DNA from: Verrucomicrobiota bacterium
GTDB taxonomy: Bacteria; Verrucomicrobiota; Verrucomicrobiia; Limisphaerales; PALSA-1396
Direction of reading: 5' to 3'
Assembly: GCA_016200005.1 (NCBI GenBank)
Contig: JACQFP010000036.1
Span: 62,001-126,000 of the forward strand
Length of the DNA stretch: 64,000 nt
Part shown: piece by piece, positions 43,418 to 45,581 of the stretch
Layout: every line of letters starts with the position of its first letter
How positions within the stretch are numbered: the first letter of the stretch is position 1
Position numbers and translations under genes: made by a program
Notes under the pieces: generated by a model
What the model was told of the DNA's origin: nothing
Databases searched by the model: none
What the model saw: the letters and a program-made list of their open reading frames with translations, nothing else

Positions 43418-44269
43418 TCAGTAACGCCAGTTGCGATAAACCTCATAAATGTCCACGCGGCCGCCGATGAAATAATCGTTCGCTGGCAGGTCGAATGTCC
43501 GCTTTGCGCGATCGTATGTCAGTGTTGTGGGCTTCTCCGGCTTGTTGGGATCATAAACTGCGAAGTGGATTTCGGTTTCCGTTTCCGTCGCATCGAACAC
43601 CAGCAGGGCGTGATTGATGGTCAATTGCGGAAAGCGGACGATGTGGACGACCGGCGGACGGTTCTGTTTCAGCGCCTCCACCAACGCCTGCGCTGTCTTC
43701 GCCTGGTGCGCGCGGCTGAAGGGAAACACCATCCGCCAATGGCCGCGCTGAAAATAACTTTCCCACGCGCCGCCACATTCCGCCTTGAGCAATTTCTCCT
43801 GGGCCTGGCTGAACTCGCGCAAGTTTGCGTAGCCGGGAATCACCACCTTCTCGCTCTCTGTTGAATACCGGCGCGGGCTTTCTGAAATTACTCGGCGAAT
43901 CAATCTTCGATACGTTGCTTCATCGGCTACGGGTTGCGCCGGATCGAAGCGCGCGTGTTGAAAGAATTGTCGTGCGGAACGGGCAACGACAAAACAGTGA
44001 TGCGTGTAATCCGGCTTTGGTTCGCGCGGTTTGCTTCGCCACTTGCCGTTCGGATCGAAATAATATTCCCAGACCAGTTGATTGGCGTAGGCCAGCGTGT
44101 CCTGTTGAAAAACAAATGGCTTGTTGGTGACGGCTGAGGACGGGCGCGAGGAAGCGCAACCGCTCAACAGCGTCACCGATAACACCGATAGGGCTAAAGC
44201 TGGCAACAACAACCGCCGTCGTTGGGCCGCAGTCACTCTGTACTCCGCACTCCGCACTCCACACTTCAT
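43418..44269 (-). CDS. Lipoprotein with papain/C39-like features
   Basis: 283 residues if ATG 44269 is used, but that codon lies in a heptamer array. GTG 44236, with GGAG six bases upstream, is an alternative that skips the array. The signal LLLPALALSVLSVTLLSGC ends in a lipobox. In the mature part, Cys in HHCFVVARSARQFFQ, His in INHALLVFDATE and Asp in FAVYDPNKPEKP are spaced like the Cys-His-Asp set of C39/papain-like folds, so a peptidase or acyltransferase-like role is possible. This is inferred from pattern only. It is divergent from the AMP-ligase. Confidence 0.65.
   Translation of the reverse strand: MKCGVRSAEYRVTAAQRRRLLLPALALSVLSVTLLSGCASSRPSSAVTNKPFVFQQDTLAYANQLVWEYYFDPNGKWRSKPREPKPDYTHHCFVVARSARQFFQHARFDPAQPVADEATYRRLIRRVISESPRRYSTESEKVVIPGYANLREFSQAQEKLLKAECGGAWESYFQRGHWRMVFPFSRAHQAKTAQALVEALKQNRPPVVHIVRFPQLTINHALLVFDATETETEIHFAVYDPNKPEKPTTLTYDRAKRTFDLPANDYFIGGRVDIYEVYRNWRY
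44234..44268. repeat. Five heptamers at the start of the C39-like lipoprotein gene
   Basis: CACTCTG, TACTCCG, CACTCCG, CACTCCA, CACTTCA: exactly five seven-base units. Read on the minus strand, they give GGAGTG-rich sequence that resembles a Shine-Dalgarno site and supplies the first codons of the lipoprotein if ATG 44269 is used. Confidence 0.85.
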
Positions 44270-44315
44270 ATATCCTGCTTGCCGTCGAAGCTATCGCTGC
44301 GTTACCAAACTGACA

Positions 44316-45581
44316 ATGCTTTACGAACGCTGGCGACAAATCGCGCAGAAACACAGCAACGAACTCGCGTTGCACGACACCACCTCCAATCGCCGCTGGA
44401 CTTTTACTCAACTCGCCGCCGAGGCGGAGCGTTGGAGTTCAAGCTTTAGCTTGTCCGGAGGCACGCTGAAGCGTGAACTCCAACCATCCGTCCAATTCCC
44501 GCAGGGTAACACCGCTGAATTCATCCTCGCCGTTCTGCGCGCCTGGCGTGAAAACAAAATTATCTGCCCACTCGACCTGGATCAGTCCGCCCCATCACTC
44601 GCAAGTCCTCCACCCGGCGGCGTCCATCTCAAAACCACTTCGGCTACGACCGGAGCGCCGCGCTTGATCGCTTTCACCGGCGAACAACTGGCAGCCGACG
44701 CGGACAACATCGTGGCCACGATGGGCCTTCGCGCCGACTGGCCCAATCTCGGCGTGATATCACTGGCGCATTCCTACGGCTTTTCCAATCTCGTTTTGCC
44801 GCTGTTGTTGCACGGCATTCCACTCATTCTGACCGACGGCGCAATGCCGGAAACCGTCCGGCGCGCGGCGAAAGATTTTGAATCCATAACGCTGGCGGCG
44901 GTTCCTGCACTTTGGCGGGCGTGGCATGATGCCAAGGCGATTCCGTCCAATGTCCGGCTGGCCATTTCCGCCGGCGCTCCGTTGCCGTTGCCGCTCGAAC
45001 AGGCAGTGTTCGAGGTTGGCGAATTAAAAATCCACAACTTTTACGGCTCCAGTGAATGTGGCGGCATTGCCTATGATGCCACCAACATCCCGCGCACTGA
45101 CGGCGCTTGCACCGGTGCGCCGATGCAAAACGTGCAACTGTCCGTTGGCGATGACGGCTGTCTCCAGGTACGCAGTGAAGCCGTTGGGCAGACCTACTGG
45201 CCGGAGCCGAACGCCGATCTGGCCAACGGTTGTTTCCGCACCAGCGACCTCGCGGAGATTTCCGGCGGACTCGTTTATCTGCGCGGACGCGCGGGCGACC
45301 AGATCAACGTTGCCGGTCGAAAAGTTTCGCCGGAGACAATTGAGCGGGCCTTGCTCAAGCACCCGCAGATTCTGGAATGCGTGGTATTCGGTGTGCCGAG
45401 CCGCAACGCGCAGCGGACGGAGGAAATCGTGGCGGTCATCGTGAGCCGGGAACGCGAGGAAAACCTGCGCCAGTTTGCATTGGAAACGCTGCCAGCCTGG
45501 CAAGCACCGCGTCAGTGGTGGTTTGTCGAAGCGGTGCAGACCAACCCGCGCGGCAAAGTGTCCCGCGCCGACTGGCGTTAG
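44316..45581 (+). CDS. AMP-dependent acyl/aryl-CoA (or ACP) ligase
   Basis: 421 residues from ATG 44316 (MLYERWRQIAQKHSNELA). Adenylation-enzyme motifs are TSATTGAPRLIAFTGEQL (core A3, usually TSGTTG), NFYGSSECGG (A5), RTSDLAEISGGLVYLRGR (A7/A8) and the C-terminal Lys of NPRGKVSRADW (A10). It is short for the family, like ligases of aryl-polyene and related lipid clusters. A 54-base palindrome (44431-44484) is inserted in frame in the N-terminal part. Substrate unknown. Neighbours: the C39-like lipoprotein (divergent) and, further on, a FabZ-like dehydratase. Confidence 0.87.
   Translation: MLYERWRQIAQKHSNELALHDTTSNRRWTFTQLAAEAERWSSSFSLSGGTLKRELQPSVQFPQGNTAEFILAVLRAWRENKIICPLDLDQSAPSLASPPPGGVHLKTTSATTGAPRLIAFTGEQLAADADNIVATMGLRADWPNLGVISLAHSYGFSNLVLPLLLHGIPLILTDGAMPETVRRAAKDFESITLAAVPALWRAWHDAKAIPSNVRLAISAGAPLPLPLEQAVFEVGELKIHNFYGSSECGGIAYDATNIPRTDGACTGAPMQNVQLSVGDDGCLQVRSEAVGQTYWPEPNADLANGCFRTSDLAEISGGLVYLRGRAGDQINVAGRKVSPETIERALLKHPQILECVVFGVPSRNAQRTEEIVAVIVSREREENLRQFALETLPAWQAPRQWWFVEAVQTNPRGKVSRADWR
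44431..44484. repeat. 54-base palindromic repeat inserted in frame in the AMP-ligase gene
   Basis: GTTGGAGTTCAAGCTTTAGCTTG (44431-44453, given here with 44462-44484 as its partner) matches the reverse complement of the right arm at 20 of 23 positions, around an eight-base loop. The element is 18 codons long, open in the gene's frame, and encodes SSSFSLSGGTLKRELQP-like sequence. Confidence 0.8.

Follow-up and report, generated by a model that had tools for sequence, protein, structure and literature searches.

The window, a stretch of 64,000 nt from a Verrucomicrobiota bacterium, carries a gene for an AMP-binding (adenylation) enzyme that runs from an ATG at 44316 to position 45581, and a palindrome lies inside it, open in the reading frame of the gene (Table 1). 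Re-reading the sequence confirmed the palindrome at 44431–44484 and its arms matching at 20 of 23 positions, both as given in a preliminary description; the arms 44431–44453 and 44462–44484 differ solely at arm positions 12, 17 and 21. The 54 bases had also been equated with 18 open codons, of which the open frame holds but not the count, as the bases touch 19 codons (RWSSSFSLSGGTLKRELQP). Positions 12 and 21 pair with each other in the arm hairpin, as A-T in one arm and as C-G in the other, so that these two mismatches amount to a single compensatory change; position 17 lies in the loop. The predicted RNA fold of 44421–44494 has an energy of −45.6 kcal/mol (z −7.8), which was equalled by none of 200 shuffles. 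Bases outside the palindrome also pair in this fold, which hinted at inverted complementarity of the flanks, but no excess of it over shuffles was found. Immediately upstream of the gene a short run of CTCCGCACTC-type repeats is found at 44230–44270, within an opposite-strand ORF (43418–44269).

Table 1. Features of the window gene and Y1 transposase loci. Locations with L numbers refer to individual loci, all others to the window; arms are named according to the REP reading favoured in the text.
Feature	Location	Strand	Evidence
AMP-binding (adenylation) enzyme, 421 aa	44316–45581	+	Pfam PF00501 and PF13193; orthologues; residues 39–57 derive from the putative REP dimer
Whole head-to-head REP dimer (putative), 54 bp, in frame	44431–44484	+	255 arms genome-wide against 0 in the control; absent from 21 orthologues
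Left REP arm, AG.CT stem type, GTTGGAGTTCAAGCTTTAGCTTG	44431–44453	+	Within-arm covariation
Left arm, unpaired tag GTTGGAGTT	44431–44439	+	Nearly all tag columns at least 90% conserved in 73 arms
Left arm, hairpin CAAGC, loop TTTA, GCTTG	44440–44453	+	Covariation counts
Spacer TCCGGAGG separating the arms	44454–44461		Spacer of 6 to ~47 nt among dimers
Right REP arm, CG.CG stem type, GTTGGAGTTCACGCTTCAGCGTG on the − strand	44462–44484	−	
Right arm, hairpin CACGC, loop TTCA, GCGTG on the − strand	44462–44475	−	Covariation counts of short-dimer arm hairpins
Right arm, unpaired tag	44476–44484	−	Tag-column conservation
Three Y1 transposase ORFs, ~305–336 aa	L080:6887–7917, L081:138–1205, L082:5799–6823		Distinct inverted repeats around each
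RAYT-like Y1 gene, 293-aa ORF	L083:6968–8973 (genome contig C43)		Among copies of a second palindromic repeat, CGGAGCGCGGCTGTGTC...
IS200-like gene locus	L248:1–1000 (G462)		Imperfect inverted repeats in several blocks, >150 bp per side; REP arms near the outer ends

All 21 orthologous proteins that we compared from related genomes (48–74% identity to the window protein) are without the segment. The expectation that orthologues would lack 18 codons was borne out for the segment but not for its length, as most of them are 12 codons shorter; with an insert of 54 nt, about 18 nt of linker must thus have been lost or replaced too. From this distribution we infer an insertion as opposed to an old inheritance with loss, and the insertion does not look clean, host bases being missing beside the element. 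A structure model of the enzyme has a mean pLDDT of 89 overall and values below 50 at residues 43–54, in the loop between helix 30–39 and the next strand, and the insert (residues 39–57) is predicted to form an exposed, unordered loop.

The palindrome stretch matched about 40 places when searched against its own genome, and the arm pattern TTGGAGTTCANNCTTYAGNNTG, with up to two mismatches, occurred 255 times in the 6.54-Mb genome against 0 occurrences of a reversed-pattern control. It is therefore a dispersed repeat, which bears out the initial comparison with a palindromic element. We read 178 of the approximately 255 arms, which were brought in by the searches and are not a random sample, their copies sharing descent; they form 66 inward (head-to-head) and 16 outward pairs, with 11 arms left unpaired. 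An arm of 23 nt consists of the unpaired tag GTT-GGAG-TT and the 5-bp hairpin CAnnC-TTYA-GnnTG, and both variable stem pairs are Watson–Crick in 154 of 164 dimer arms, the stem types being AG.CT, CG.CG, AC.GT, GC.GC, GG.CC, AA.TT and others. With a short hairpin, a conserved unpaired tag at one end and many dispersed copies the family matches the definition of REPs, and the head-to-head and tail-to-tail dimers and heterodimers expected of REPs are found as well. Arms of different stem types are combined in 31/33 short inward dimers and in 16/33 long ones (p = 8e-5, to be taken as a guide only since copies are related by descent). Heterodimers have been suggested to escape clearance by SbcCD-type enzymes (PMC3733652), and the excess in short dimers is in line with this idea, though no proof of it. 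No target-site motif was found around the dimers (at most 0.23 bits at every position).

The closest known system are the GTAG-tagged REPs (Di Nocera et al. 2013, PMC3733652), which share the unpaired tag, a short hairpin whose stem variants are complementary, dimers of both orientations (head-to-head and tail-to-tail) and heterodimers, and also dimers inside ORFs that encode about 20–30 residues, a member from the Verrucomicrobia included. They are described with two extra unpaired bases, a short tail and degenerate tags, and with dimers inside ORFs above all in Opitutus terrae (PMC3733652). In contrast, the host tag is GGAG (GTTGGAGTT), even if relatives carry TTGTAGTTC, the stem has 5 bp, and no RAYT gene flanked by the repeat, as in the GTAG superfamily, was found in the host. 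Judged by its architecture and its tag, the family appears to stand beside the GTAG REPs, and in the literature PMC3733652 was the only report directly relevant to this repeat family in Verrucomicrobia. Two inverted REPs with a short spacer in many dispersed copies also recall the REPINs (Bertels and Rainey 2011, PMC3116915), as do spacers that look conserved in the relatives G036 and G120; in the host, however, spacers are mostly unique and no resident RAYT partner was found.

At least 18 of the 66 inward dimers read sit within conserved genes, namely the window gene and at least 17 others, without breaking the reading frame; a dimer was called in-gene if Pfam domains or orthologues were present on both sides of it. 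Most inward dimers read fall outside confirmed genes, and short dimers (52–62 nt) are in-gene more often than long ones (68–93 nt), with 14/33 against 4/33 (p = 0.012). Besides the window enzyme the genes hit encode SelA, an M19 peptidase, a squalene/phytoene synthase, a DUF58 protein, two aminotransferase-fold enzymes, CysS, MnmE, Mfd, HI0933, MmgE/PrpD, FabD, RhaT, a sigma-70 factor, a RumA-like methyltransferase, a DUF1592 protein and a UPF0261 protein. The two aminotransferase-fold genes are adjacent (PF00155, then PF00202, at L048:1694-4664), with a REP dimer in each.

How a frame can pass through the element follows from the arms. A left arm with the loop TTCA is open in all three frames (VGVQASAC, RWSSSFSL or LEFKLQL) and one with the loop TTTA is readable in two, because TAG closes the third, whereas the right arm normally leaves one open frame (LKRELQ or LKLELQ), the others being stopped by TRA and TGA. 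According to our reading of the RumA-like gene, a changed tag (GGACTCC replacing GAACTCC) abolishes the stop there and a second frame is used. Alignments to the congener G001 and to G006, a second genome of the order, showed that the in-gene copies occupy loops whose length varies. In the window gene, Aminotran_3, FabD, RumA-like and DUF1592, which give the five cleanest comparisons, the net gains over element lengths were 36/54, 42/54, 48/58, 66/71 and 60/72 nt, always a multiple of three and 5–18 nt below the length of the element. An in-gene insertion would survive if it falls into a loop and changes the net length by a multiple of three with the frame reading through the right arm, and such read-through would yield a short and probably unstructured peptide.

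Allowing one mismatch, the arm is present in 43 of 245 genomes of the order and in 22 of 338 drawn from the phylum, with very uneven counts such as 216 in the window genome, 17 in its congener, 273 in G370 and 168 in G474. The tag is GGAG in the host and TTGTAGTTC, i.e. GTAG, in G462, G058, G561 and G373 (also given as TTGTAGTTCA). Relatives have in-gene copies as well, for example in Mfd of G186 and in an AnmK gene of G227. G227 and G233, which represent two genera of one family, share a dimer position to the codon in an FtsK/SpoIIIE-like gene (81% identical over the aligned part), with an identity of 89% for the element against 76–81% for the flanks. Likewise, the Mfd dimer occupies the homologous codon in the same orientation in the window genome and in G186 from another family (element 93%, flanks 63–65% identical), and it is absent from Mfd of the congener G001 and of G006, which belongs to another family. 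As repeat copies are alike anyway, the element identity cannot separate old inheritance from two insertions at one site, and the same-site copies suggest either long retention or repeated targeting. A tentative idea, which we rather doubt, is that a given loop of a given gene regains or retains its REP dimer across large evolutionary distances; if true, in-gene REPs would repeatedly or durably supply new loop segments, and would do so with a site preference.

In the 5-bp stem of 73 aligned arms (39 distinct) we counted 30 two-sided changes against 7.6 in shuffles (0/500), and the two arm hairpins on 21 short dimers gave 21 against 7.2. The pairing of the long palindrome in the same 21 dimers showed no covariation (3 against 11.6 in shuffles), two of its pairs being broken in 18 and 20 of them. 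Thus, the structure that is kept is the hairpin of each arm. Stem covariation, the strong predicted RNA fold and the same-site copy retained in the FtsK-like gene of two genera would also suit a conserved regulatory RNA hairpin that acts on mRNA stability or translation pausing and is kept by selection in the genes hit. We consider this improbable, as those genes are unrelated and have orthologues without the hairpin, most copies read are outside confirmed genes, an Rfam search of 44000–45000 gave zero matches, and covariation is equally expected of DNA hairpins recognised by a Y1 transposase.

The preliminary description had compared the palindrome with the Rickettsia palindromic elements (RPE), noting a different sequence and host. 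Dispersal and absence from orthologues support this comparison, which overlooked that the palindrome is built from two REP arms, each with a hairpin of its own, in head-to-head arrangement. Like RPEs the element is palindromic and tolerated in frame in many unrelated genes; it differs in its host and in its unit, RPEs being compared here by their description. As RPE-4 and RPE-6 have been filed as CGTC-type REPs (PMC3733652), the two kinds overlap. A Rickettsia-type element in the strict sense, that is a long palindrome moving as one unit by an unknown mechanism and with no link to REPs, would account for the in-frame copies and for the fact that no transposase is tied to the repeat in the host. 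It is hardly likely given that the covariation lies in the arm hairpins and not in the long-palindrome pairing, and that arms also occur as outward pairs, as apparently single units and with other spacings.

We consider it very improbable that the dimers are miniature inverted-repeat transposons (MITEs) mobilised by a DDE transposase. Outward arm pairs do lie within an element of ~140–150 bp with terminal inverted repeats of ~25 bp and apparent direct repeats of 8–9 bp, but the inward dimers, the window copy included, are not clearly flanked by the direct repeats of a target-site duplication (short dimers: mean match 3.45, shuffles 3.51, p = 0.68; long dimers: p = 0.054), and in-gene elements take all three length values modulo 3, which is incompatible with a fixed target duplication without later indels. 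The MITE-like element itself (ends TTGGGCTATGCACTTGATTCCCCTT, AT-rich direct repeats, two outward REP arms) was seen at L097, L102, L107, L112 and L114 and has 28 termini genome-wide; it most plausibly represents another element in which REPs are nested or which carries them along.

We therefore read the window feature as a head-to-head dimer, more precisely a heterodimer, of GGAG-tagged REP units, with a probability of about 0.8. This reading is supported by the copy number against the control, the dimer architecture, the within-arm covariation, the loop position, the patchy bursts across order and phylum, the in-gene copies with Pfam domains or orthologues on both sides, net gains smaller than the element, and inverted arms around an IS200-like gene of G462. 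Counting against it are the mostly unconserved host spacers, unlike those of classical REPINs, a host without an arm-flanked Y1 gene, a single Y1 locus with inverted arms on both sides among the 64 examined, and the host bases missing beside the element. As such, the feature is a real, mobile-looking in-gene REP dimer whose tag variant is new, in-gene REPs as such being already known. Palindromes that enter genes and leave their frames intact are a rarely studied route to new protein segments, and this family offers many copies together with close and distant relatives with and without them. In addition, it offers a rule for in-gene copies, comprising normally one open right-arm frame, loop sites and a net length that is a multiple of three. 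What in-gene insertions cost, how old they are and what mobilises them thereby become directly testable beyond Rickettsia, and the number of genes entered as well as the sites shared in Mfd and FtsK add to the interest.

Concerning the mobiliser, the window arm is absent near all four Y1_Tnp genes of the host, three of which are flanked on both sides by their own inverted repeats. The presence of Y1_Tnp as such (198 of 245 genomes) is too common to discriminate. Among 64 Y1 loci examined in the host and in repeat-rich relatives, inverted arms on both sides were found at just one, L248 of the class-level relative G462, where an IS200-like gene (NCBIfam NF033573) lies between long inverted repeats that include the arms GTTGTACGGAGTACAGGCTTCAGCCTG. 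These have the same hairpin design as the host arms, which would link the family to the Y1 transposases of IS200/IS605 and RAYT type, even if it is a single case with the tag variant GTTGTACGGAGTACA. With 64 such arms spread over the 8.6 Mb of G462, chance is unlikely to have placed two inverted copies on either side of a gene of this kind. L241 was discounted as a second such locus, since both of its arms lie on one side and its genome has the highest density. We infer that the units spread as single-strand hairpins copied in trans by an IS200/RAYT-like Y1 (HUH) transposase, and of the mechanisms considered Y1 mobilisation in trans appears the likeliest, with slightly better than even odds. 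The fourth Y1_Tnp gene of the host, the RAYT-like one, lies among copies of another palindromic repeat, CGGAGCGCGGCTGTGTC..., which may form a REP-like family of its own in this genome.
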